Origin: Heliocidaris erythrogramma
Lineage: Eukaryota > Echinodermata > Echinoidea > Camarodonta > Echinometridae
Direction: 5' to 3'
Assembly (NCBI GenBank): GCA_025617745.1
Contig: CM046863.1
Location: 15,380,875 to 15,444,874 of the forward strand
DNA length: 64,000 nucleotides
Shown here: positions 18,853 through 51,332 of the stretch, piece after piece
Layout: the number at the start of each line of letters is the position of its first letter
How positions within the stretch are numbered: position 1 is the first letter of the stretch
Notes under the pieces: generated by a model
Seen by the model: only the letters and a program-made list of their open reading frames with translations
Databases searched by the model: none
Told to the model about the DNA's origin: nothing
Program-made: the position numbers and the translations under genes

Positions 18853-20429
18853 GTAAAAGACTCGGTGAATCCAAATCATTAATCATGATTTCAATATCAA
18901 CGTTTACAATGCAAAAGTCATGAAACTGCTCGCTTACCTGAGCTGATGCGCGAATATTTGGCTGTTTGTTGTGTACGCCCTGTGCCGTCCGACTTGGCGT
19001 CTAGCTGCACGAGCTACCGTAGCGCTTTTCTGCTAAAAGTAGTCATGTTAACGAACTCTAGATAAGTGAAATCCGAACTCGCTGTTTCACTCGAGAGTAT
19101 CTATTTCTATGAAGTTTCTTATCGCACTCTTATAGATCAAAGAAGTTTTGCTTTTAGAATTACTTGAATGCCCGTGAGGCTTCATGGGGCTATAGACTAA
19201 TAATCAATTAGTAGAACGCAAGATATTTCATTGTCGAGGATGGCACTGACGCCATTGCCGTGAATTGAAATATGTTAATTAGTCTCCTCCTGACTTTTTC
19301 GTACGATAGATGCACATAACCTCAACTTGAGTACGGAGAGACGTATAACGAACGCATTTGCATACATAATTTGTATATTATATTCCTTGAAGGGGAAATC
19401 TACCCTAATACAAGTCGGTTATAAAAGAAGGGGAAAATATAGATAAACAGATCAATGACTATTTCAGCAAAAATCCAAAAAGAAATAAAGTTATACAATT
19501 GTGAAGTTGTAATCATTCAAACACAAATTGGCAACTTCGTTAACGAATCTTGCGAGCAAACCTCCCATTTTCTGTGTACAACAAAAAAAATCCACTTTTT
19601 AAATTTTAAATCATACATGCAACCTAAATAGAACATAACCTATATGACAGAAATGCATTCCTTCAACAATTAAGAAACTGAAAATTTGTGAAATTTTCTC
19701 TAGAAACCGAATCGTAGAGGAGTTGCCAATTTCTGAAAATGTGTGTAATTGATAAAAATTTCGAAAATTCATAACTTTCTTATGTCTTGTCACTAATCTG
19801 CTCATGTTATTGTTATACCATGTATGATTTTATTAAAAACAATTAGATATTAGGGTGGAGACTTCCCCTTTATTGTTCTCTTTCACTTTGTCTTTCTTCG
19901 TCGTTATTTCTCTCTCTCTCTCCAGTATGATCCTACATTTTTCCTTCATTATATCCAACTCTCTTTAGTTTCATTTGCCATTACCTTCTCTCATTAACCT
20001 TCATTATAGGCCCATCCTTCCTTCAGTTTCTATCTTTCTTCATTTTATAGGCCTATTGTCCTTCAGTGTATCCCCTGTCTCTCTTTCTTCTTCTTCATAC
20101 CCGTCTCTCTCTCTTTATTTTTTTTTTCGTTCACGCTTTCACCTTGGTACTTTTTATAATTCATCCATCCTTCTCTCTTTTACTTTGCTTTTCTAAGTCC
20201 TTAATTTCAGGATATATTTCTCAAAAGACCTTCTATTATATCATAACCTATAATTCTCTCTATCCATATTATATCCTTTGTTATTGATTATAGTCTTTTC
20301 ATCTTATTCCTCCTTCATTCGGTCTAATATAACTTTTTTTATAATCATTTATTTTCATATCTTTCTCCCTCTCTCCTTCATTTATTGAGTTATATGTATA
20401 GCAAACAAAACCAAATCAATCATTTAATA
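18853..20429 (+). repeat. Local tandem duplication, copy 2 (truncated by LTR element)
   Basis: Homologous to 17,213-18,283. It has taken up a MITE (19,389-19,870) and ends exactly where the LTR retrotransposon begins. Copy 1 therefore serves as the empty site for that insertion. Confidence 0.75.
19389..19870. mobile_element. About 480-bp MITE inside duplication copy 2
   Basis: The left end, AAGGGGAAATCTACCCTAAT, is an imperfect inverted copy of the right end, which contains TATTAGGGTGGAGACTTCCC. The flanks TTGA and TTTA resemble a degraded TTAA duplication. It does not code and is absent from duplication copy 1. Confidence 0.6.
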
Positions 20430-21715
20430 TTTGGTAATTTGATAGGTGGTGGTTGAAATTGAATCACTCTTGCATAAGTAATAAAAGTTCACTGTCCTAA
20501 CAAATTCCCTTTTTTATTAATCTGCTGGAGAGAAGGCACACAATAAAACTAACAAAGTCAAAATGTAATTTCACAAAGGTTTAATAACGATCAAATAAGA
20601 CATAATATATTCAGTTTATCATATAAACTAATGAGCACTTATATTTGGTTATGATTACAATTAAATATTAATAACTGAATTAAGTTATGGGAAGGCGCTG
20701 TTTATTGAGCGGAAGGCCGCCGCTATTTAACTAAGATTGGCACTGTTTATCGAGCGGAAGGCCGCCGCTAAAAGTTACCTGAAGAAACTGATGGAGTGAT
20801 GATTGTCTTGACTCGAACTGGTGTGGATGAGGCAGAAATATGTCGAAAAAGGTGGTTGGTGTTCACGAAGTCTGGACGTGTAAACTGGTGCGGAGCAACA
20901 CTTCGTAGTTCGGTCGAAAAGTCAATTGAAAACTGGTTCGAGTTGCATGGTCGCTCGTCGGCTAACAGTGGTGGTCGGCATTATCGTTCGACGTCGAACA
21001 CGACAGGGATAGTTCGAAAACGTCGGCTGACGGTTGCATAACAATGTCGTTCGAGGTTAAACACGACGAAGGTAGTACGAAAAGGTAAACGTCGACGAGA
21101 GCCAGATCGATCGATGAGAGCTCGTGCCAGGACACATGTCTACTGGCGAAGTTCTAATAAAAGTCTCTGCCCGTAGCGAGTTGATGCAGGAAAACTAAAT
21201 TAACTCATATTGAAGTGTAGTACTCGTGAAACGCATCCTTTTCTCTATTTAAAATCATTTCTGGTCGAAATCTAAAAAGTAGGCGAAACTGAGAAAACAC
21301 GTGATGCGATTCGAGAAACAAAAAATCAGTAGATGTGGTCTGGGCGAGATCAGGCAGAAGAAGAGGGGTTATTTTTAGCTCGCACTCTGCTTTTATATGA
21401 CCTAGTGGTGTCGAATCGACACCGCTCGGATCCAAAATTGACCAATAAAAACAGAGATTGACCGTTTAAATCATACATTAGGCAAATTAGGCAAAGAAGA
21501 AATCGGAAAATACGGACGTAGAGGAGATAATGGAAAAACACTGAAATGGGCATATAAAAAAGCTTACTGGATACTGGGGTTAAAAATACTACGCCATCTA
21601 CGATGTGGTAGACAAGCTTATAGTACAGAGTGGTATAGCAAATGAACGAGTATACGTTACTAATATTTTTTCTTAGTGAATTAATAAATTAAAAATACAA
21701 TGTATAGCCGCTACA
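20430..21715 (-). repeat. 3' LTR
   Basis: 1,286 bp. On the minus strand it starts TGTAGCGGCTATACATTG and ends ACCAAA. It carries a TATAAAAG box at 21,390-21,397 and an AATAAA signal at 20,513-20,518. It also holds two near-copies of the motif GAGCGGAAGGCCGCCGCTA about 50 bp apart (about 20,700-20,770). An antisense (plus-strand) 81-codon frame at 20,796-21,041 recurs in the other LTR, with no known domain. Confidence 0.95.
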
Positions 21716-21730
21716 ACGAACCCCCCTGTA
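21716..21730 (-). promoter_or_regulatory. Polypurine tract
   Basis: On the minus strand the bases just before the 3' LTR read ACAGGGGGGTTCGT. The G-run is the expected purine primer for plus-strand DNA synthesis and lies within 6 bp of the LTR start. Confidence 0.6.
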
Positions 21731-22378
21731 GACCCGAGCCTGCGTATATGTAAGCACCCGAGGGGCGATAACATTGGAATACAAATAGTTGAAAATACAG
21801 AACAGGTCACACAATATGTAAGCATGAATACTAATCATAACCAGGCATAAACAGGTATGCCAACGGACAAACAATCAAATAGTTCTTGGTCCATGTTACG
21901 AAAAACAATCTTAGTTAAGACATCAGCAAAATAGTGCTCTACGGATACAAAAGCAACCTTACGACAAACAAATACTGTTGATATAACAGGCAAAGTGGCA
22001 AGGTCCATACGTAATCAATGGTGATGACATAAAGACCGAATTTGAACTGCACGAATGAGAACAGTACACCATAAAAGAAATTACAGTCATATATACCCTG
22101 GTGGTGTCTCACGAGGAAAGATATTCATATATATCATATGCAAAAAAGGAACATGGTAGCAATGTACTGCAAAAGTAAGTAAACCAGTAATGCAATCTCT
22201 AAACAAATAATATACAAAATCAGGGTGGTCGAGAGACGACAAAATACCATAAGTATTCTGAGCACAGACAAAGGCATGTGCACTAAATCCCCCAAGTAAG
22301 AGTCCGTCACATAAGCAATAAGGGAATAATACACCGATCTACACAGACAGGGACTGAGGGAGGAAAAAAAATGCAACC
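21731..22378 (-). other. Retrotransposon 3' non-coding internal region
   Basis: About 650 bp between the pol stop and the polypurine tract. The minus-strand frames (22,134-22,376 and 21,689-21,874) are short and match no gag, pol or envelope feature. Confidence 0.55.
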
Positions 22379-25300
22379 CTATCCCACGACTTGCCCATAA
22401 CGCGCGGGAAAGTGTACATGTCGGCCAGCGCGCGTAACACGCACAGGCGAGTCGCAGGGAGAGGCAGGTGTCGGAGCACGCGCTGGGGGCAGGGGGACAA
22501 GGGCGGGGGAGGGTGGCGAGCCGCGGCGGGTGGGGGCGGTGCCTGGGACGGAAAAATGGGGCGCATCGTGAGCAGGCTCGCTCACGTCAAGAAAGGCGGG
22601 TTTGAGGCGGTCGATGCTGACGCTGGTAGTCTTGCCATTTTGACTAAGCACAAAGTATTTAGGCGTGCGGCGAATGACCTTGAACGGGCCTTTATATGGA
22701 GGCTGCAGTGGCTTACGCACGGCATCAACACGGACAAAGACATGGCTGCTAGTATCCAGCGACCGGTGAATGAAACTGAATTTCGACTGCTGGCGCGTGC
22801 CAGTCGGGGAGAGGGCAGACATGTGCCGGGTAAGACGTTGCGCGTAGTCAGCCGGATCGGGGGAATGCAAAGCTGCTGGCGCTACCATGTGCCCGGGCAG
22901 ACGAAGTGCCGTGCCGTAAACAAGCTCGGACGAAGCGCAGCCCAGATCCTCTTTGACCGACGCTCGAATACCTAACAAGACAAGGGGGAGGTATTCGCGC
23001 CAACGATCTGGGGCATGTTTGGCCTTAAGCGAAGCCTTAAGCTGACGGTGGAAGCGTTCCACCATGCCATTAGCTTGTGGATGGTATGCGGTAGTGGCGA
23101 TACTGTGACAGCCTAGCAGGGCGGCCAACGCTGCAAACAATGCGGATTGGAATTGCCTGCCTCGGTCGTGCGTGATGGTAGCCGGCGCACCAAACCGGGA
23201 AACCCAATGTTCCACCAGCGCCGTGGCGACAGTCTCCGCGGTCGCGTCGGGCAGAGGGATGGCTTCGGGCCATCGTGTAAATCGATCAATGATCGTCAAC
23301 AAGTACACGGTGCCTTTGGAGGGGGGCAAGGGTCCCACGAGGTCGATATGAATATGCGCAAAACGCGCGTCTGGGTGGGCGAAAGTGCCAAGGGGTGCAT
23401 GAACATGGCGCTGCACCTTGGCGCGCTGGCACGGCACGCAGCTGCGCGCCCAGTCGCGCACGTCGACGTTAACTCCAGGCCAAACAAAGCGGGCGGTGAG
23501 CAATTTCCGAGTCGCTCGAATCCCTGGATGTGAGAGGCCGTGAATGCTGTCGAAAACAGCGCGGCGGTGCTTTGCCGGGACGAATGGGCGTGGGACTCCT
23601 GTGCTTACATCGCACCAAATGTAAGCATTTCCTTCGGGAAGGAGTACCTTCTCAAATGTCAACGAGGAAGTATCATTGCGCAATGCTGCTAATTCATCAT
23701 CATGCTGCTGGTCCGCGGCTATGCCACGTAAATCACAAGCGGGCGGGGCGTACGTGGACGTGGACGTGGACGTAAATCCACGTAAATCCACGTGGACGGC
23801 AGAGAGAGGGACGCGTGACAATGCATCGGCCACGCTATTGTCACGACCGTGGACATGGCGTATGTCGGATGTGAACTGCGACACATAATCCAAATGCCGT
23901 ATCTCCCTGGGGGAGTGGCGGTCAGGTGAGGACTGCAGCGCAAATGTCAAAGGCTTGTGGTCTGTTAAGACATAGAACTCGCGTCCTTCCAAGAAATGCC
24001 GGAAATGACGGACAGCCAAGAACATTGCCAGGAGCTCGCGCCCGAATGTGCTGTATCGCGTTTCGGCGGGTTTTAAGCGGGCGGAAAAGAAAGCAATGGG
24101 TCGCCACGCGCCTCCTGACAATTGCTGAAGCACGCCACCAACAGCGGTGTCGGAAGCGTCGACTGCCAGGCTTGTCGGGAGGTCCGACGACGGGTAAACC
24201 AACATTGCGGCGTCAGCTAATGACTGCTTGACGGCGTCAAACGCGGTATCGCATTCGGGGGTCCACGCAAGCGGTTTGCGTGAGCGCTTTGGCTGTTTCC
24301 GCAACATGTCAGTCAAAGGGACTAACGAGGCAGCGCAGTCAGGGACGAATCTTCGGTAGAAATTGACGAGACCTAAGAAGCCGCGCAGCTGACGCAGTGA
24401 AGACGGACGGGGAAACTCGCGTACAGCTTGTACTTTCTCCGCAAGTGGAGCGATGCCTTGGTCACTCACGCGATGACCCAGGAAGTCGAGTGCTGCCGCG
24501 CCAAACTGGCACTTTGCGGGGTTGATCACGACGCCAAATGCGGACAAACGAGCGAAGAGCTGGCGGAGATGCTCTTTGTGCTGCTCGTGATCGTCGCTCG
24601 CGACGAGCAAATCATCAATGTACGCGTATACAAACGGTAGATCACGCACCACACGGTCGATAAACCGTTGAAACGTTTGGGCCGCATTACGCAAGCCAAA
24701 TGGCATGCGTGTAAAATGAAACAAACCAAATGGCGTTGTGATAGCCGTTTTGCGTTGGTCATCTGGATGGACGGGTATTTGATGGTACGCACGTACCAGG
24801 TCAATCTTGGAAAACACGCGTTTGCCTTCAAGGTGGACGGAAAAATCGTGCAAATGCGGAATGGGGTACCGATCAGGGATGGTCACGCGATTCAGCGCGC
24901 GGTAATCCCCACACGGCCGCCAATCGCCGGTCTTTTGGGGGACCATATGCAATGGTGAAGCCCATGCGCTGTCGGAGGCTTCGACGATCCCTAGCTCCAT
25001 GAGATGAGCAAATTCATCCTCGGCTTCGCGGAGCTTACCAGAATCTAGGCGCCGGGGTCGCGCAACAACGGCTGGCCCGCGCGTTTCGATATGATGAACC
25101 ACATCGTGTTTCACCGGGCAGTCTCTGTACAAGGGCTGAGTAATATCCGGAAATTCAGACAGAATCTCGTCATAGCCAGGCGATTCCGGCCGGGAAATCG
25201 TGAGATTGAGCGAGGAAAAGGCAGTTGCGACACCTGCGACTGACAGGCTGGTGGAGGAATCTCGAAGACAACAGGCGCGGAGATCAACCATCAAGCCAAA

Positions 25301-25630
25301 GTGTCGGAGAAAATCGGCGCCTAATATAGCGTGGGAAACGTCGGCAATCACAAACACCCAACGAAATACTCTGCGCAGCCCTATCCGAACAGTCATGGAA
25401 CGCTGACCGTACGTTCGAATTGGCGTTTTGTTCGCTGCTTGCAATATCAAAGGAAAAACACGTTTACGGTCGGAGGATGTGGGCGGGATAACGCTGATCA
25501 CTGCACCGGTGTCCACTAAAAAGCGCGTGCCATTCTGGGAATCGGATACGAAAAATAAGCGACCCGGTGGAAATCGACCAGTCGGGGCGGTCGCGAAAAT
25601 CCGCTGGTCTAAGCGTTTCCCGATGTCGTG
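22379..25630 (-). CDS. pol: pol polyprotein (protease, RT, RNase H, integrase)
   Basis: The frame opens after a stop at 25,631 and runs uninterrupted to 22,379. Counting from the GTG codon at 25,516, the protease active site DTGA is at residues 2-5, with ILGADFL at 64-70. Reverse transcriptase has its catalytic YIDD at 299-302. RNase H carries D453, E494 and D519. Integrase has the zinc site H659/H663/C693/C696 and a catalytic triad D725, D784, E820 with spacing D-x58-D-x35-E, followed by a GPF module near the C-terminus. All catalytic residues are present and there is no internal stop, so the product looks functional. There is no start codon for independent translation. The frame overlaps the end of gag by 22 nt and is reached by a -1 frameshift. 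It acts in cytoplasmic particles (reverse transcription) and in the nucleus (integration). Antisense frames over this region are shadows. Confidence 0.95.
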
Positions 25631-26477
25631 TCAAATGAGCAAGGGGGCCGGCACTTGTGGGCGTTGCTGCCCCACGTTTCATGGTACCAACAGTATGGCA
25701 TTGCTTGCTGGGCACTGGCCGTTCCATCAGGCTGCGATGAGTCAGGCCCGTTAGCGGTCGTTTGCGAGCTAGAAGTAGGAGTACGGGGGCGCCCTTGCGG
25801 GCCGCGACTGCGGCTGCGACTCCGACTGCGCAGCACTCGCTGCAAAGAGCGCACTTGTTCGGTTAAGGCGGCAATGTCGGCCTTTAAATCGGCGACGGCG
25901 GAATCCGAAGGCGCAGGGCTCGAAGCCTGAGCAGCAAGGACCGGCGGCATGGGCACGTCCATGATTCGATCCGCAAGGTCCGCTACCTGCTCGTTGGTAA
26001 GGGCAGTACTTGCAGTAGTAAGGATAATTTGCACATTCGCGGGGAGTCGCTGCACGAACAACTGCTTCAGAATGTTTTCTTCAAGTTTGTGTTCGCCAAG
26101 CAGTTGCCTCATTTTTCGCAAGAACTGGGAAGGCTTGCGATCCCCAGTTCCAACTCGGTTAGCAGCAATTGTAGTCTCCTTTGCTCCGATTCGGAGGTGC
26201 GCCGAGTAAGCTCCTCCTTTAAGTGGTCGTAGGGCGAATCAGCGGGCGGGTGAAGCAGCACATCGCGTACCTCTTGCGCAATCTCAGGCTGTAAGGCGGC
26301 GACGACATGCGAGAATTTGGTAGTCTGAGATGATATGCGTCGGGTAGCAAACTGTGCCTCGACTTGGGCAAACCATATTTGAGGGTCCGATGCCCAAAAT
26401 GGGGGCAATTTGATGGGGACCGGTGCCGATATCGGAGCTAGCTCGGCCGCGGGCGCTTGATCTGATGGGTTAGGCAT
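25609..26477 (-). pseudogene. gag: gag gene with one internal frameshift
   Basis: Gag builds the particle and binds RNA. Translation probably starts at the ATG at 26,477, which opens MPNPSDQ; the frame is open further upstream without clear homology. The N-terminal part contains the PPFW, WFAQVEAQF and TKFSHVV motifs seen in the gag domain of this clade (annotated as DUF7041 in databases). At a short run of C on the plus strand near 26,139 the frame shifts by one base: the first part ends at a stop at 26,109 while the homologous continuation runs in another frame (open to 25,609). The continuation includes an SR-rich stretch and the zinc knuckle C-x2-H-x9-C-x3-C close to the end. It could be a real one-base loss or a homopolymer assembly error. 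Everything else in the element looks intact. Confidence 0.85.
25615..25621 (-). promoter_or_regulatory. -1 ribosomal frameshift heptamer GGGAAAC
   Basis: The minus strand reads GGGAAAC in gag phase as G-GGA-AAC, the canonical X-XXY-YYZ slippery pattern. It lies two codons before the gag stop and inside the 22-nt gag/pol overlap. A single -1 slip enters the pol frame. No stimulatory pseudoknot was examined. Confidence 0.85.
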
Positions 26478-26826
26478 CGCGCGCGAATAATCGAAGAGAC
26501 AAGTCGTAGAATTGGGTATCAAAAAACTGTAAAAGTAATATTTCACTATATAGACAATCTAATTTAAATTAGCAGGCAAGCAAAAATAATAAAGGACAGA
26601 TATAAGCAAGAAGGGCGGATTGATGTCTAAAATTAAATACAGCTAGTCTAGGTGTACACAATATATAAAGAGATATCCAAAAGAATTCATAAAGGTGATA
26701 TGCTATGTATTAATAAGAGTTGACGGGTAACGTTATTAGGAAAAAGTATATTATAAAACGGGAACGAGGAACTAATCAAAGATTTAGAGTGGCCTTATCT
26801 CCACGCAGAGATCACGTCGGACTCTT
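26478..26826 (-). other. Retrotransposon 5' leader
   Basis: About 350 bp between the primer site and the gag start. It is AT-rich with no frame of note and would hold any packaging or dimerisation signals. Confidence 0.6.
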
Positions 26827-26844
26827 ATCACGTCGGGGTCACCA
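26827..26844 (-). promoter_or_regulatory. Primer-binding site complementary to tRNA-Trp
   Basis: On the minus strand, one base after the LTR, the sequence reads TGGTGACCCCGACGTGAT. This is the complement of the 3' end of eukaryotic tRNA-Trp including CCA (plus strand ATCACGTCGGGGTCACCA). tRNA-Trp priming is characteristic of the CsRn1 clade. Confidence 0.9.
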
Positions 26845-26845
26845 A

Positions 26846-28133
26846 TTTGGTAATTTGATAGGTGGTGGTTGAAATTGAATCACTCTTGCATAAGTAATAA
26901 AAGTTCACTGTCCTAACAAATTCCCTTTTTTATTAATCTGCTGGAGAGAAGGCACACAATAAAACTAACAAAGTCAAAATGTAATTTCACAAAGGTTTAA
27001 TAACGATCAAATAAGACATAATATATTCAGTTTATCATATAAACTAATGAGCACTTATATTTGGTTATGATTACAATTAAATATTAATAACTGAATTAAG
27101 TTATGGGAAGGCGCTGTTTATTGAGCGGAAGGCCGCCGCTATTTAACTAAGATTGGCACTGTTTATCGAGCGGAAGGCCGCCGCTAAAAAGTTACCTGAA
27201 GAAACTGATGGAGTGATGATTGCCTTGACTGGAACTGGTGTGGATGAGGCAGAAATATGTCGAAAAAGGTGGTTGGTGTTCACGAAGTCTGGACGTGTAA
27301 ACTGGTGCGGAGCAACACTTCGTAGTTCGGTCGAAAAGTCAATTGAAAACTGGTTCGAGTTGCATGGTCGCTCGTCGGCTAACAGTGGTGGTCGGCATTA
27401 TCGTTCGACGTCGAACACGACAGGGATAGTTCGAAAACGTCGGCTGACGGTTGCATAACAATGTCGTTCGAGGTTAAACACGACGAAGGTAGTACGAAAA
27501 GGTAAACGTCGACGAGAGCCAGATCGATCGATGAGAGCTCGTGCCAGGACACATGTCTACTGGCGAAGTTCTAATAAAAGTCTCTGCCCGTAGCGAGTTG
27601 ATGCAGGAAAACTAAATTAACTCATATTGAAGTGTAGTACTCGTGAAACGCATCCTTTTCTCTATTTAAAATCATTTCTGGTCGAAATCTAAAAAGTAGG
27701 CGAAACTGAGAAAACACGTGATGCGATTCGAGAAACAAAAAATCAGTAGATGTGGTCTGGGCGAGATCAGGCAGAAGAAGAGGGGTTATTTTTAGCTCGC
27801 ACTCTGCTTTTATATGACCTAGTGGTGTCGAATCGACACCGCTCGGATCCAAAATTGACCAATAAAAACAGAGATTGACCGTTTAAATCATACATTAGGC
27901 AAATTAGGCAAAGAAGAAATCGGAAAATACGGACGTAGAGGAGATAATGGAAAAACACTGAAATGGGCATATAAAAAAAGCTTACTGGATACTGGGGTTA
28001 AAAATACTACGCCATCTACGATGTGGTAGACAAGCTTATAGTACAGAGTGGTATAGCAAATGAACGAGTATACGTTACTAATATTTTTTCTTAGTGAATT
28101 AATAAATGAAAAATACAATGTATAGCCGCTACA
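26846..28133 (-). repeat. 5' LTR
   Basis: 1,288 bp, almost identical to the LTR at 20,430-21,715. The TATAAAAG box at 27,807-27,814 lies about 320 bp downstream of the LTR start, and an AATAAA signal is at 26,929-26,934. The antisense frame at 27,153-27,458 is probably fortuitous. Confidence 0.95.
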
Positions 28134-28468
28134 AATACACAAACATAGCAAGTGGGACTCTGTGTTACGTTGTACTCCCTGTGTACTCATATGTACCAGA
28201 GACGTGGTTTAAAGGTATACACAACCGCAAATTGTGGGCGTTTTTATGCCGCGAGACGGCACCGTTATCGCTACCTGATCATGCCGATGCCCCGTGGGGC
28301 GCAAACTTCGGACAGACTGACCGCCGTTGCAGGCTGTTGCGCTAAATGCGCTTGTTTCGCGTAGTATAAACGTCCTCGAAATTGTGGAAATAAAAAAGCT
28401 GACCGAAGAAAATATCTTCCAGTTTATTACGAAGCCAGGTAAGGGACATGGGGAAAATCTTTTTTTCG
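28134..28468. other. Flank between LTR element and satellite
   Basis: The first bases (AATACACAAACA) resume the interrupted duplication copy 2. The rest is GC-richer single-copy-looking sequence. A plus-strand frame that begins here (28,327) simply runs on into the satellite. Confidence 0.5.
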
Positions 28469-29409
28469 AGATAATATCACGTTCCCTCGAGATATTATCT
28501 CGTTCCCTCGAGATATTATGTCGTTCCCTCGAGATAATATCTCATTCCCTCGAGATATTATGTCGTTCCCTCGAGATAATATCTCGTTCCCTCGAGATAA
28601 TATCTCGTTCCCTCGAGATAATATCTCGTTCCCTCGAGATATTATCTCGTTCCCTCGAGATAATATCTCGTTTATACCTCGAGATATTATCTCGTTCCCT
28701 CGAGATATTATCTCGTTCCCTCGAGATAATATCTCGTTCCCTCGAGATATTATGTCGTTCCCTCGAGATAATATCTCGTTCCCTCGAGATAATATCTCGT
28801 TCCCTCGAGATATTATCTCGTTCCCTCGAGATAATATCTTGTTCCCTCGAGATAATATCTCGTTTATACCTCGAGATATTATCTCGTTCCCTCGAGATAT
28901 TATCTCGTTCCCTCGAGATAATATCTCGTTCCCTCGAGATATCATGTCGTTCCCTCGAGATATTATCTCGTTCCCTCGAGATATTATCTCGTTCCCTCGA
29001 GATAATATCTCGTTCCCTCGAGATATCATGTCGTTCCCTCGAGATAATAACTCGTTCCCTCGAGATACTATCTCGTTCCCTCGAGATACTATCTCGTTCC
29101 CTCGAGATAATATCTCGTTCCCTCGAGATATTATCTCGTTCCCTCGAGATAATATCTCGTTCCCTCGAGATATTATCTCGTTCCCTCGAGATATCATCTC
29201 GTTCCCTCGAGATATCATCTCGTTCCCTCGAGATATTATCTCGTTCCCTCGAGATAATATCTCGTTCCCTCGAGATATTATCTCGTTCCCTCGAGATATT
29301 ATCTCGTTCCCTCGAGATATTATCTCGTTCCCTCGAGATATTATCTCGTTCCCTCGAGATAATATCTCGTTCCCTCGAGATATTATCTCGTTCCCTCGAG
29401 ATATCTTTC
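28469..29409. repeat. 21-bp palindromic satellite (about 44 units)
   Basis: A 21-bp unit, CGTTCCCTCGAGATATTATC plus T, is repeated about 44 times. Each unit contains the palindrome CTCGAG and a second palindrome AGATWWTATCT whose centre flips between ATTAT and ATAAT from unit to unit. Two variant units with TTTATACC replace the TTCCC block about 192 bp apart (near 28,671 and 28,863), suggesting a nine-unit higher-order period. Because 21 is a multiple of three, several frames on both strands stay open for about 300 codons. These give SRSLEII-type and ISRGNE-type heptads and are not evidence for a protein. The array ends 20 bp before the ATG of the integrase-like gene. Confidence 0.95.
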
Positions 29410-41563: not shown

Positions 41564-41691
41564 TTTTATTGCTAGATAGTTTAGCTTATGAGTCGTACAG
41601 CCTGTTTCACCCGAAGGTTCATCAGCGACTGATGAACCTTCGGGTGAAACAGGCTGTACTACTCATAAGCTAAACTTTCTAGACAATAAAA
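41564..41691. repeat. 128-bp near-perfect palindrome with 3-base centre
   Basis: Arms of about 62 bp (41,564-41,625 and 41,629-41,691) meet at CGA. Only a few positions differ between arms, for example GAGTCGTAC against GTACTACTC and GCTAGATAG against TTTCTAGAC. Each strand therefore carries the hammerhead-type core CTGATGAACCTTCGGGTGAA. It looks like two terminal fragments of a ribozyme-bearing retroelement in inverted orientation. Confidence 0.9.
41591..41630 (-). ncRNA. Minimal type I hammerhead ribozyme
   Basis: Read on the minus strand: stem I 5' arm AGTCG; core CTGATGA; stem II ACC-TTCG-GGT; core GAAA; stem III CA-GGC-TG (two pairs plus the A-U closing pair); cleavage triplet GTA; stem I 3' arm CGACT, which pairs perfectly with AGTCG. 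Cleavage would fall between plus positions 41,596 and 41,595. All invariant core bases are present. On the plus strand the equivalent stem I does not pair (AGCGA against CTACT), so only the minus strand looks active. Very short stem III and a GAAACA...TGTAC ending are typical of hammerheads in Penelope-like retroelements, where they lie in the terminal repeats and often act as dimers. No Penelope reverse transcriptase was found nearby. Confidence 0.8.
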
Positions 41692-42777
41692 ATTATACAC
41701 AGCTCCTCCAGTTGAGCACTTTTAGAAACTGCAGTGTATTGTACATTACTGTACATTACTGTACATTACTTTGAAAAAGTATTCAAACTTTTTAATCTTT
41801 GTCAATATGGCTAGTGTTAGATAATTTTAAAAATGGATCTGCTTTTAAAGTATCAATACAAAATAAAGTTTCCGATTCATTTTCAATGACAAATTATGGT
41901 TTCATCTGGTATGATACTTTGGTATGGATAGTAACATAAACATCGCCTACCATACAAATGTCAATGAAAAGGTATTAGCATACATTTTAGATAGGTTTTA
42001 GTAAATATAAACATAAAACTTAACTATCTTTCGAGATGAGAGCATACATTAAATTCCACGCGGCATAAATATTATAAATTATAAATTGTCAATTTTCTAG
42101 CATGAACAACGTGGTAGAAACAATGAGTTATATTATAGCAATGGGAGTAGTAAAATGGTTAACGTAATAGTCTTACAGTAGTCACGTGGTTAATATAGAC
42201 CTGCAGATATCTCACACAAGGACACATTCTTCTGGGACAGCTAATTGTAGAACAACTACCCGCTAGCAAAAGTCTTTTAGAACAAAACTATAAACTATAT
42301 ACCTCCCTACATACTGCACAATATTAAATTCTCATTTACGACGTTAAATTGAATTATGTTGCAAAACTACTTTTCGGTTTTGCCATGTTGACAGATAGCA
42401 ATTAAATTGTATAACACAAGAAATAATTATATGGATAAAATAAATTAATAATTAATAAATTCAAAATAATTATTTTGAATTGTACATGGATATTATAATT
42501 GTATTATTTACTGAATATTGATTTTTTATTGATTTGTATTGATTTGTATTGTTGTTGGAAATTGAAACTGAAACTGAACTGAATTAAACAAAAATAAATA
42601 ATCAGATTTTCCAAAAAGATTATGTGTACATTATGTCACGTATATTACAGCCAAGATGACGAAATTACAAAATGACATCTGTCATGGGTATTGCATGTTT
42701 TACAGTTGAAGTCGACAGTATAGCGACACATTTATTTGTTACAGATAAAACTCTGAAAGTGGTTCATATGATATTGT
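41692..42777. other. AT-rich flank, 3' side of the death-domain gene
   Basis: Downstream of the minus-strand stop at 42,778, so it probably includes that gene's 3' UTR. Near 42,520-42,590 a TTGATTTGTA run and GAAACT repeats resemble the simple-repeat tail of a LINE. GTACATTACT is repeated three times at about 41,740-41,770. Confidence 0.4.
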
Positions 42778-43825: not shown

Positions 43826-43900
43826 AAAGACATGGAATAAAGCAAACTAAATACACAAATACACACGCACACACTCATACGTAGGCTATATATATATATA

Positions 43901-45566
43901 CAGTTAACAACAAAATTATTCATACCCCTTGGAAAATTCTAGTTTTTTGCATTTTTCCTAAAAATGAATGGTTAACTGAATTTAATTGCACATCACTTGA
44001 ATACATTTAGTTATCATCTGCAAATTAATGCCGTTTCTGGTTTCACCTCATTTGCATAACAATAGAAAAGGTGAATTATCCAAACTGGGTGATGTTCAAA
44101 ATTATTCATACCCTTGGTGATCTATTGACTTTGTCAATCAGTATGAATCCAGTCCTTGTGATTAATGCTCGTAACACTTTCTTCACACTCTCACAATGCT
44201 TCTGGAGGTCTCTACTGAGATATCAGGCCAATACCTGGTCTCCAATGGCCCAATCTCCTTGAGGATGTTGTCCACACATGCCATCACCTGGTCTTCAGGG
44301 GATTTGATGGATTTAAAGCAGATTTTGTGTTTGCAGGTGGTGTAGTTTTAGACGTCATGAGGATAGGACTATGATATTGATATTTTCGTTAATATTCCTT
44401 ACATTTTAATGACAATTCTGTATCTAAGTTGAAACAAAGCACTCTTCCTGGAGAGACTTCCCTAGAGGCATTCACTGTTGCACTGTCAAAGGAAGGTATT
44501 TCCTGATACTTTTGTTCCATTATTATTAAGAATGTTTAGGAAGGCCATGGTAGTTGTCTAAAGGCTGGATGGTGCCAATTTTATCAGTTTATTCAGTTAC
44601 ACTGATTGACACATTTTTGATGTGGACACCTGCAAGTGGGTACTCTAGTGAAGCTTAAAATACTGATCTTTATGTTCCAGTGCACTGTCAAAGTGGTAGC
44701 ATTTTGTGCACTGCAACTGGTAACATGGAGGGCATATGGTATAAATTTGGTTTACATTCATTCTGATATCAAGGATTGTAGCTTTCATACCAAAGATACA
44801 AAGAATATACCATATGAAGATTGATATACAGTAACAGTCAATGTGGGATGTGTATGGTACTCAAAGGTTACATACTGTTATTCATGGTGACCTGACGTTA
44901 GAGTCATGCAATGACTTTAATATCACCAACATGGCCTTCCTGAGCACTCTGATTAAGAATGGGGCCAATGAATAAAGGTGAACCCTCCCACAGGCAGTGC
45001 AAAAGGGAAGGGCTCTTCAGGAATGGTGCTTTGCTTCATAAGTAGATACAGAATTTTCATTAAAATGCATGGAATAAATGACCGAAAATTTCAATATCAT
45101 AGTCCTGTCATCATGAAGTCGATAACTGCATCACCTGTAGGACACGAAATCTAATGAACTCCCTGAAGGTCAGGTGAAGGCATGTGTGGACACATCCTCA
45201 AGGAGATTGAGCCATTGGAGAACATGTACTGGCCTGATATCCCAGCAGAGACCCCTCCGGAAGCCTTGTGACGGTGTATTAAAATAAAGTGAATTACAAG
45301 CATTAATCACAAGGATCGAATTCATACTGATTGACAAAGTCAATAAATCACCAAGGGTATGAATAATTTTGAACATCGCCCAGTTTGGATAACTCACCTT
45401 TTCTATTGCTATGCAAATGAGGTGAAACCGGAAACGGCATTCATTTGCAGATGATAACTAAATGTATTCAAGTGATGTGCAAGTGACTTCATTTAACCAT
45501 TCATTTTTAGGAAAAATGCAAAAAACTAGAATTTTCCAAGGGTATGAATAATTTTGTTGTTAACTG
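43901..45566. mobile_element. Tc1/mariner-like foldback element, copy 2
   Basis: Sister of the element at 522-2182, with the same CAGTTAACAACAAAATTATT ends flanked by TA and the same internal order. A small insertion (TTATTAAGAATG region near 44,525) and scattered substitutions separate the copies. It is inserted in a TA microsatellite. There is no transposase. Confidence 0.85.
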
Positions 45567-47764: not shown

Positions 47765-47880
47765 CTGAAATGTAGCAATTGCAATAAAGGAAAAAAACAT
47801 TTACAAAAATAAAATATATTATTCATTAACACGTAAGTGCTCGTATGACATTGTTGCATTGAAATACCAGGTATATCAGG

Positions 47881-50800
47881 TTGTATACCAGGTTATATCA
47901 TAACCCCAATGAAAATTGGGTCTGTTTGACGTGCTCATTACCACCTTTTTGTGACTCCCTTTTTACTCAATCCTGTGAAGATATTCAACCCTCTCAACCA
48001 ATTTTACCTCCTATCCCTGAAGTTAGAATACAGAATACTGTTGATGAAAGCGCTTTATATGAATCATTTAATGATACTTTTAATGGTAAAGGGTTGCATC
48101 TTGTTCATTTGAATGTTAGATCAATTCTGTTTAAAATACCTGAACTACGACTCCTTTTCTCCCAAAATAGAATCTCTGTAATTGCAATCACTGAAACGTG
48201 GTTAAACTCTTCCGTGAACGATGAAGAAGTTTGTATCGATGGATATTGTATTTTATGGTGGTGGAGTCTGTCTTTATATTAGAAATGATATTGCATTTAA
48301 CGTACGAGAAGATCTTACACAAAATGATATTGAATCGTTATGGATTGACATTCTATTACCCCATACAAAACCCATTACTCTAGGTGTTGTGTACAGACCC
48401 CCTACGGATCATTATTTTATTGAATATCTCACTGACACCTTGGATAAATTAACAAAAGATGATGAGGTTATAATTTTAGGGGACATGAATATCTGCCTTT
48501 TGCAGCAGTCTTCATTATCAAAAAATACAAGAATATTTTGAATTTAAATGGTTTGAGTCAACTTATAACTAAACCCACTCGAACAACATCGGCCACTTCA
48601 TCATTAATAGACCATGTAATCAGCAGTAAAGAAGAAAATATTTGTCAAAGTGGTGTTATTGAAATTGGCCTAAGTGATCATTTTTTAACCTACTGCTCTA
48701 GGAAGCTAATAAGACCTGTATTCAAACAGCATAGAAATATAAATATTCGGTGTATGAGAAACTATTGTATAGATGATTTTAATAATGTTTTATCTCGAGT
48801 CAATTGGTCTGACATATTAGAATGTAAAGAAGTAAATACTGCGTGGTCAATTTTCAAAAATATTTTCATGTCTATAGTTGATAAATGTGCTCCATTAAAA
48901 CAAGTAAGAATTAAGCAAAGAACCGATAAGTGGATGAATGCTGAATTTATTTCGTTAATAAGACAAAGAAATATAGCTTTTAAAAGAATGAAAAAGGATT
49001 GGGTAATTTAGAATTAGAAAAGAAATATAAACTTTTACGTAATTTGGTGCAAAGAAAAGTGAGACAGGCTAAAGATGAATACTTCCAAAATCAAATTGAT
49101 GAGCATAAAAATGATTCTAAAAAGTTGTGGAAGAATCTGAAAGATTTAGGTTGTAAAAACAAACAAAAGAATGTTAAAGAGAATGTTATTAATATCCAAG
49201 GGAGTTATGTCATGATAATATGAGGATAGCGAACGAATTTAACAATTATTTCACAACTGTGGCAGAAAAATTAGCTAGTAATCTGCCAGATAGCAACGCA
49301 AATGAATTTGGAACGGACAGTGTTAAAATACAAAAATTATACGACACTAAGGGTGTGTCGAAAGGTTGTTTTCTTTTTTCTCCTGTCAAAGAAACGTTTG
49401 CTTTAGATGAATTAAATAAGTTGAAAATATAAAAAAGTACCGGGCTTGACTTGGTACCTGCCAGATTTTTTGAAGGATGGAGCTAAATATTTGTATAAAC
49501 CTTTAACTTACATTATTAACTTATCTATCTCAACTTCCACCTTCCCTGATGAAATGAAAATTGCAAAAGTAACACCCCTTTATAAAAAGAAAGATAAAAC
49601 CAATGTTAGCAATTATAGACCGATTAGCGTTTTAAGTATAGTCTCGAAGGTACTAGAGAAATGTGTGTATGCCCAATTAGAGAACTACTTTCAAGAAAAC
49701 AAAATAATATACGAATTTCAGTCTGGTTTTAGAAATGGTTATTCCACTGAAACTTGTCTTATTCACCTCTTAGATTTTGTCAGGAACGAAATTTCCCAAG
49801 GACGTTTTGTCGGGATGGTTCTTCTTGACTTGCAAAAGGCCTTCGATATCGTTAACCATAATATACTGTTAAGTAAATTAGAAGTAATGGGTTTAAATTC
49901 TGCATGTGTGCAATGGTTTAGGTCTTACTTGACCAATCGTCATCAAGTTTTCTCGTTGAAAAATGTACTCTCCGATTCTGTGCCCATAAGATGCGAAGTT
50001 CCCCAGGGGAGCATATTAGGTCCTATTCTTTTCATGTGCTACATTAATGATGTGTGTTTGTGTCAACGACAGTAAATTACTTTTATATGCGGATGATAGT
50101 GTGTTACTATATTCTGGTACTGATCCTAAGCTGATCGGGGAAAAACTTAGCTTAGAATTATCAAACTGTGTTAATTGGATGACAGCAAATAAGCTTACCT
50201 TACATATTGGTAAAACCGAAAGTATTCTGTTTTGTTCGCGGGGTAGGCTGAAGTATACTGATGATTTCAATATAAGTTATAACAATCAACTCATTAAGAG
50301 ACAGGATTCTGTGAAGTATTTAGGACTAAATATAGCTAGTGATCTTTCTTGCTCAAGTTTGGTTGACAGTATTGTCAAAAAAGCTAATGCTCGTCTAAAA
50401 TTATTGTATCGTTATCAAAATTGCATGAACTTAAAATCAAGATGCATTTTAAGTTTTTCCTTAATACAATGTTTATTTGATTATGCTAATGCGGCATGGT
50501 ACTGCAGTCTAGGCAAGGTGGATCAAAACAAGTTAAAAATAATTCAAAATAAGATTGTAAGATTTATCAATCACTTACCACCAAGAACACACATTGGGAA
50601 GAGTGAACTTGAAACAGTTGGTCTTCTTCATGTAAACCTTAGATCACAACAACTTTTAATTCACCATGTACATAATATTTTTTACTCTAATGCAGATCAC
50701 TATATTTCAAATAATTTTACTCGCTCTTCAAGTGTTCATGGGCATGACACTAGAAATAGTCAATTTAATTTCGTAGTGCCTAAGCGGAAAGGTAAAATTG

Positions 50801-51332
50801 GAAATTCCTTTTATTTTAACGGTATTCTTTTCTGGAATTCCCTCCCAAATCATGTTAAGTCAGTTAAGAATTTTTTACATTTTAAAAGGGTATTGAAGCA
50901 TCATCTGAAAAATGTGTCTACTCCATAACTATATTTCTCCTCTCCCTTTTGTAGCTCAGATGGTTTTTTTCTATATTATATGACTTATGTAACCAACGTT
51001 TATTATCGATAGTTTCATTATGATTTTCTGTATATAGTTTTTTTCCGTTGAGTAAGTCTTGTTTTCACATTTATGTAATCTTCGCCTACTTTTTTAAAAT
51101 GTTATGTTTTATTTTGCTACTTTAGTACATTCTTATTACTTGTCGTACGTGTACGATAGTCTTGTAGCCGTACTAATGTGTTTTCTTAGTGTATTTTTTA
51201 ATCAGTTATTTAGGTAAGGACCCCATTGGAAATAAGCCATTTCGGCTTTCATGGGCTATCCTGTCATGGTACCTGGTTATGTTTGTATTGCAATATACCT
51301 GACGAATAAAATCAAATAAAATCAAATCAAAT
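47881..51332 (+). mobile_element. CR1/L2-group LINE, 5'-truncated and decayed
   Basis: The plus-strand order is: the end of a zinc-finger-like segment (WVCLTC), an AP-type endonuclease (LNVRS, ITETWL, GDMN), reverse transcriptase (NYRPISVLS, LLDLQKAFD, PQGSILGPILF, YADD) and a C-terminal region ending at 50,928. A 3' UTR and a simple tail of ATAAAATCAA-type units (51,305-51,332) follow. The coding sequence changes frame at least six times (near 48,250, 48,540, 49,005, 49,220, 49,440 and 50,060), so it cannot make protein. It lies in an intron of the minus-strand death-domain gene, in the opposite orientation. Confidence 0.9.

Follow-up and report, generated by a model that had tools for sequence, protein, structure and literature searches.

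The transposition of Penelope-like elements (PLEs) is described as little known in the consulted passages of PMC11167929, and the role of the hammerhead ribozyme in these elements is called a mystery in the accessible text of PMC7761336. Inverted ends, tails and palindromes of PLEs have been read as products of self-priming on an antisense template, a mechanism proposed for bdelloid Penelope in the available part of PMC3846280. As described there, the bdelloid elements show head-to-head inverted ends, palindromes at the inverted junction and a 31-bp tail that is optional on one inverted end, which resemble the locus reported here, and short target duplications, for which some copies of its family offer candidates. 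According to passages of PMC11167929, the anole Poseidon PLE, PAc, resembles the element of this locus in a hammerhead near the ORF start, an AT-rich target and two adjacent internal start sites, one on either side of the tail, and probably also in a GIY-YIG/RT protein and in the cutting and extension of both target strands. The minimal type I hammerheads described for PLEs and Terminons (Cervera and de la Pena 2014 and Lunse 2017, as cited in the accessible text of PMC7761336) are alike in their short helix III and their location in the PLE pseudo-LTR, and the metazoan retrozymes treated in the same text likewise carry a type I hammerhead in dispersed repeats.

The locus lies in a 64-kb stretch of sea-urchin DNA, hereafter the window, and looks like a double-ended mini-insertion of a PLE, with two ribozyme-bearing ends set head to head, not like a lone ribozyme. 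Its origin from a PLE is almost certain.

A palindrome with two hammerhead cores

The features of the locus are as follows, N and T denoting the arms without and with the tail.

41591 to 41630, minus strand: hammerhead motif with intact stem I; cleavage predicted between minus-strand positions 41596 and 41595
41619 to 41668, plus strand: second hammerhead core, stem I disrupted by the junction and by a G-to-T change at 41660; 36.7 bits
41562 to 41632, minus strand: N arm, the 3' part of a PLE without its tail; the element sense is the minus strand
41626 to 41628, no strand: centre CGA, native, found within CAG-CGA-CTG of full-length copies
41629 to 41771, plus strand: T arm, the 3' part of the same PLE as the N arm, with its tail
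41698 to 41771, plus strand: tail, with the first GCTCC..GAGCAC motif at 41702-41719 and, at 41740-41770, three TGTACATTAC units
41630, minus strand: position -35, the A of TCAGTC in intact copies; putative 5' end of one template RNA

The near-perfect palindrome with a 3-base centre that a sequence-only reading of this DNA had described is found at its place, with arms at 41572-41625 and 41629-41682 that are 96% complementary and a centre of CGA. The feature exceeds the palindrome, since the right arm continues via the tail to about 41771, and the final four bases of the N arm (CTGA, 41629-41632) are common to both arms. The minus strand from 41630 to 41591 reads AGTCG-CTGATGA-ACC-TTCG-GGT-GAAA-CA-GGC-TG-TA/CGACT, where the slash marks the predicted cleavage site, so that the hammerhead elements do stand in the order reported. 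The arrangement had been called tail-to-tail; the ribozymes meet by their 5' ends and are therefore head-to-head.

Stem I had been said to pair on the minus strand only, and this asymmetry had been taken as an argument for functional descent. The stem is indeed intact on the minus strand and broken on the plus strand; the argument built on it does not hold. In full-length copies the native left-arm stem I reads CAGTCG-CTGATGA, and the plus-strand stem is broken because its arm begins at CTGATGA and bears the G-to-T change at 41660 relative to the common sequence. The strand difference is thus the work of the junction and of decay, not of selection for one strand. The arms of the window copy diverge from the common sequence at several places. 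Folded as RNA, the palindrome has a predicted energy of -98 kcal/mol against -8.4 kcal/mol for the ribozyme stretch, so that the window copy is probably inactive. It is most likely an inert scar, and no clear target duplication was seen flanking it.

The covariance check that the same reading had proposed gave a divided answer. The Rfam models are silent: no family reaches its gathering score in the 64 kb, and a search over 451 bases at E up to 10 returns 14 weak matches, microRNA-type hairpins among them, all below their gathering scores and none a hammerhead. A piece of a long PLE copy likewise yields no match, and ten related loci yield a tRNA only, no hammerhead. The lack of a significant score on the minus strand had been named as refuting, but a covariance model built on related families does supply one. 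It was made from seven hammerheads, drawn from six PLE families of this genome other than the one to which the window copy belongs, and gives the minus-strand motif 48.4 bits (E 6.6e-11) and its plus-strand counterpart 36.7 bits (E 1.2e-7); the third-best match in the window has an E-value of 0.12. The tool itself describes such E-values as rough. As had been claimed, the motif is not a chance one. The PLE families are lettered A to G in this analysis, and the window copy belongs to family A.

Covariation points the same way. In an alignment of nine hammerheads from seven families (8 distinct rows), 92.5% of cells are paired and 33 cells are changed on both sides; the covariation score is 0.800 compared with a shuffled mean of 0.276, a value attained by none of 500 shuffles, while slid versions give at most 0.110. 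Changes on both sides occur in 12 of the 15 hammerhead pairs (attained by 4 of 500 shuffles) and are found in stems I and II and in one of the three stem III pairs, the other two being invariant. An invariant core, three helices and covariation mark the motif as a type I hammerhead, and the compared sequences indicate that it is under RNA constraint.

Other features of the window include a Gypsy-type LTR retrotransposon at 20429-27486 (RT, RNase H and integrase by Pfam), whose flanking direct repeats are 99-100% identical in the compared pieces and so indicate a recent insertion. About 44 copies of the 21-bp unit TCGAGATATTATCTCGTTCCC occupy 28466-29404, where long ORFs on both strands probably arise simply from the repetition, and an ORF at 30494-30961 matches the rva_4 integrase core (Pfam PF24764, E 1.7e-18). 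Two copies of roughly 1.65 kb, at 511-2196 and 43887-45542, are about 97-98% identical in the compared pieces and have long inverted ends about 1.1 kb apart, resembling a non-autonomous DNA transposon. Degraded frames of a non-LTR retrotransposon lie at 47863-50928, with a Pfam reverse transcriptase at 49425-50075.

The element family and its two kinds of end

The genome assembly searched comprises 1.06 Gb in 26 contigs. A 119-bp piece of the palindrome has 86 matches in it (40 of 143 candidates scored), and a 40-nt piece of the arm has 143 matches at up to 3 mismatches (100 places listed) and none when read backwards. Opposite-facing arm pairs are frequent, 0.1 to 12.5 kb apart, and open frames lie between the paired arms, one example being L009:790-2121 on the minus strand, for whose protein the genome gives 98 matches, with 95 of 1712 candidates scored. 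Searching with the arm had been suggested as a way to find PLE copies, and it did yield ORF-bearing copies with a reverse transcriptase ORF between the arms. Together with the full-length copies, the covariation and the covariance score, the genomic relatives of this ORF give good support to the earlier claim of descent from a PLE hammerhead.

Family D is 65% identical to family A in protein. Of 7997 candidates scored in a protein collection, 2740 are relatives of the family-D protein, and Solemya velum and Watersipora subatra are named among the matches listed. An AlphaFold2 model of the homologue P0003 (pLDDT 90.3) finds TERT, the telomerase catalytic subunit, as its best Foldseek match (E 1.7e-8, with a modest TM of 0.34-0.38), and other reverse transcriptases follow close behind. 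The modelled fold thus indicates a telomerase-like reverse transcriptase in the family, the window copy itself having no ORF. Pfam assigned no family to three of four ORF proteins from PLE loci, the fourth (L048:3058-5706) being an Ig-type neighbour, and a sequence-profile search of PDB for a reverse transcriptase in the PLE protein gave no hits. Pfam recognizes GIY-YIG in 1 of 13 aligned members (E 1e-5), and a YIG..R..H block is conserved in the alignment. A pseudo-LTR with a hammerhead, inverted ends, an optional tail and a reverse transcriptase protein is the layout of a PLE. Regarding target duplications, AACATGTATTG flanks L018 on both sides and similar repeats of 8-11 bp were noted by eye in L029, L032 and L040; none was seen at L030.

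Read in sense and pieced together from several copies, with the stretch before the ORF taken from L013, family A runs TCAGTCG - hammerhead - CGACTC .. CCAATAAAATTATA CACA GCTCC..GAGCAC .. TGACTTA CATA GCTCC..GAGCAC .. ATG. In full-length copies the N end usually halts before the first GCTCC motif and the T end before the second, so that two motifs stand at two start sites. In typical family-A copies an insertion end is separated by about 4 nt from the motif on its 3' side; elsewhere the distance is, by eye, as much as roughly 20 nt. The same two tandem motifs are present in families B, C, D and E, and their spacing is 52-64 nt in families A-E. Because folding of the motif region is clearly better in energy than that of shuffled sequence in just one of five stretches, the name hairpin for the motif rests on the conserved GCTC/GAGC.

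The two kinds of end occur as a pair, one T and one N per insertion. By script classification, 36 of the 64 family-A loci have exactly two arms, and 35 of these 36 combine one T with one N, facing outward in all 35. The exception, L013, has two T arms in the same direction and is half of a larger locus whose other half, L014, has an N. The other 29 loci comprise 20 single T and 5 single N arms, many of them fetched on one side only, besides L013, L010 (one T and two N) and L041 and L083 (two T and one N each); L015 (T) and L016 (N) are two halves of one place. Removal of the copies L012, L019, L075 and L081 leaves 31 T/N pairs, of which 28 were fetched regardless of the tail and 3 (L064, L077, L082) via the tail, and the chance of 28 such pairs in 28 under random choice of site per arm is about 4e-9. 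In other families, where flanks were read by eye, one T and one N are seen in L053, L055, L056, L061 and L063. At least in L072, L076, L079 and L080, the T end is apparently joined nearly directly to the target.

Arm lengths were compared in 12 longer insertions, a set that leaves out L010, L045 and L046 (rearranged), L047 (reference), L064, L077 and L082 (short stretches), L013-L016 (nested) and the 15 short palindromes. The lengths of the T and N arms are unrelated (Spearman rho 0.05, p 0.88): the N arm is the longer by more than 30 nt in seven, the T arm is the longer in two, and the arms are within 30 nt of each other in three.

Arm ends and a proposed route of insertion

Arm-end positions are counted from the predicted cleavage site. 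The tail has 81 matches in the genome at up to 3 mismatches, and the T-arm ends come from the 44 exact-tail loci among them, 40 after removal of copies. Sixteen of the 40 ends fall at -37 to -21, a 17-nt stretch at the 5' edge of the ribozyme, and none at -20 to -5; three lie downstream, two at -50 (one common junction), one at -59 and six between -87 and -247, and the remaining 12 either lie beyond -380 or run past the limits of the compared piece. An even spread of ends over 421 nt would produce such a cluster with a chance of about 1e-15, a rough yardstick. The ends of L029 and L030 are at -37 by automatic comparison, through coincidental extension, and at -29 by reading of the junction, both within the counted interval. 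Since five of the 16 clustered loci (L068, L072, L076, L079, L080) have little or no N arm by eye, palindromic joining does not by itself account for the cluster. No arm of the 15 short palindromes extends past -35, apart from L040 (-36, with one shared base) and the N arm of the window copy (-37, with its four shared bases). As a separate observation, L015 and L064, both on contig C1, have the same foreign stretch fused at -50, as if from one chimeric RNA. The palindrome centre of L042 (538-640) has an extra partial sense copy of the hammerhead, about 20 nt long, suggesting a template jump.

Family D shows a comparable cluster. With 40 of 40 candidates scored, it has 17 5'-truncated arms; seven of these start at -43 to -34 and four form a second, smaller cluster at -63 to -59. 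Junction letters, read in six stretches, place L084 and L085 exactly at -35, L086 at -37 and L089 at -39; the overshoots past -35 in L086, L089 and the window copy may be shared bases. L087 is a short palindrome of the same design as the window copy, and L088 likewise, with unequal arms. A family-D inverted pair at G000 C4:38580385-38580717, whose arms abut without a gap at about -60, belongs to the -63 to -59 cluster. From these junctions, -35 is likely to be the 5' end of one template RNA, which would place the hammerhead at the apparent start of that RNA. The base is the A of TCAGTC, which we take to match the metazoan initiator consensus. A T arm ending near the cleavage site is rare (1 of 40: L067, at +3), suggesting that uncleaved RNA is the usual template.

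The window locus is best explained as one old PLE insertion, for which the following route is, as a whole, reasonably probable. The PLE would cut both strands of an AT-rich target, and each target 3' end would prime reverse transcription. One cDNA would begin just 5' of RNA motif 1 and give the N arm; the other would begin just 5' of motif 2 and give the T arm, which would carry the tail because of this start. At the window locus both cDNAs would have reached the 5' end of a short RNA beginning at the hammerhead, and their 3' ends would have been joined at the small native inverted repeat CAG-CGA-CTG, leaving two ribozyme ends head to head. The copies show the PLE origin, the T and N pair, the two motifs at the start sites, the clustered ends at the 5' edge of the ribozyme and the unrelated arm lengths of longer insertions; the inferred parts are priming by both strands in living cells, an RNA that starts within stem I (inside TCAGTC), and joining through a few bases in common. 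L010, L041, L083, L013 and the apparent direct joins of T to target do not fit it, and near-equal arms in 3 of the 12 longer insertions are what fold-back would give. Strict pairing also has against it the in vitro result, in passages of PMC11167929, that the two strands did not differ in start site, which on its own gives no reason to expect strict T/N pairing. Going further, and with rather less than even confidence, PLE integration might be a paired reaction in which the two tandem motifs of one RNA load two polymerase subunits, a separate cDNA is launched from each motif, one per target strand, and the tailed and untailed cDNAs are joined head to head; the hammerhead would then mark the very start of the PLE mRNA, with the promoter initiator inside stem I.

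Self-priming would have one cDNA fold back at a short inverted repeat and copy itself into a palindrome, the N arm being the second strand and the N end being set by annealing to a TA-rich target. The window centre is exactly the native mini-inverted repeat CAG-CGA-CTG, in three of the 12 longer insertions the arm lengths differ by no more than 30 nt, and most N ends lie at TATA beside a TA-rich flank, as this account would have it. It is nevertheless somewhat unlikely. The untailed arm is the longer one in 7 of 12, and a fold-back copy of T is never longer than T, while a copy of N cannot hold the tail; two starts are therefore needed in these seven. Moreover, the N ends of L018 and L022 have no TA at the join. 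Fold-back is thus disfavoured as the general route, although at the single window locus it would also fit.

A doubtful, indeed unlikely, account of the end cluster is that reverse transcriptase falls off the folded ribozyme RNA, so that the ends would not mark an RNA 5' end. Clustering at the ribozyme in two families is what it would produce. However, an enzyme moving along the RNA would first run into the fold where stem I has its 3' side, and there L067 is the one T end of 40 nearby, and the ends gather at the far 5' edge, with the -20 to -5 interval empty.

The existence of 15 short palindromes could suggest a palindromic mini-element or retrozyme-like unit that spreads by itself, in place of separate PLE insertions; this is very improbable, as 14 different junctions occur among the 15, their flanks differ, the motif lies within ORF-bearing PLE copies, and the ribozymes are inverted and do not form direct units. 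A retrozyme proper, a non-coding unit with direct tandem hammerheads, was likewise rejected on the inverted arms and the ORF-bearing relatives. A chance motif or the terminal inverted repeat of a DNA transposon, the latter a first thought from the opposite paired arms and the case named at the outset as refuting a ribozyme origin, is scarcely credible with an E-value of 6.6e-11 from an independent model, arms that lead in both directions into a reverse transcriptase ORF, and two ends that differ by the tail.

Comparison with described elements

The route preferred here, with one cDNA primed on each target strand, agrees with the anole PLE protein, which cuts and extends both strands. T/N pairing ties two start sites to two RNA motifs, and it makes of the both-strand result obtained in vitro a specific rule testable in living cells. 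The work on PAc in PMC11167929 is in vitro, and inverted dimers are absent from the passages found; its start sites lie in an AC-rich stem loop inside the ORF, whereas those of the sea-urchin PLE lie before two tandem motifs upstream of the ATG. Metazoan retrozymes, in the accessible text of PMC7761336, are direct units of 150-300 bp, in contrast to the inverted copies of an ORF-bearing PLE seen here. Compared with the minimal PLE and Terminon hammerheads of the same text, the sequence and the position at the apparent RNA start appear to be new.

The bdelloid elements differ in having full pLTRs and ORFs, explained by self-priming, and the word hammerhead is absent from the available portion of PMC3846280. 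The one-sided tail is foreshadowed there as optional; what is added here is its consistency, a single tail being found per two-armed insertion in many copies, and the tie of the ends to two RNA motifs, along with the ribozyme-only scars. Within the open-licence literature searched, ribozyme-only double-ended scars, consistent T/N pairing matched to two RNA motifs, and an end cluster at the 5' edge of the ribozyme in two families are new.
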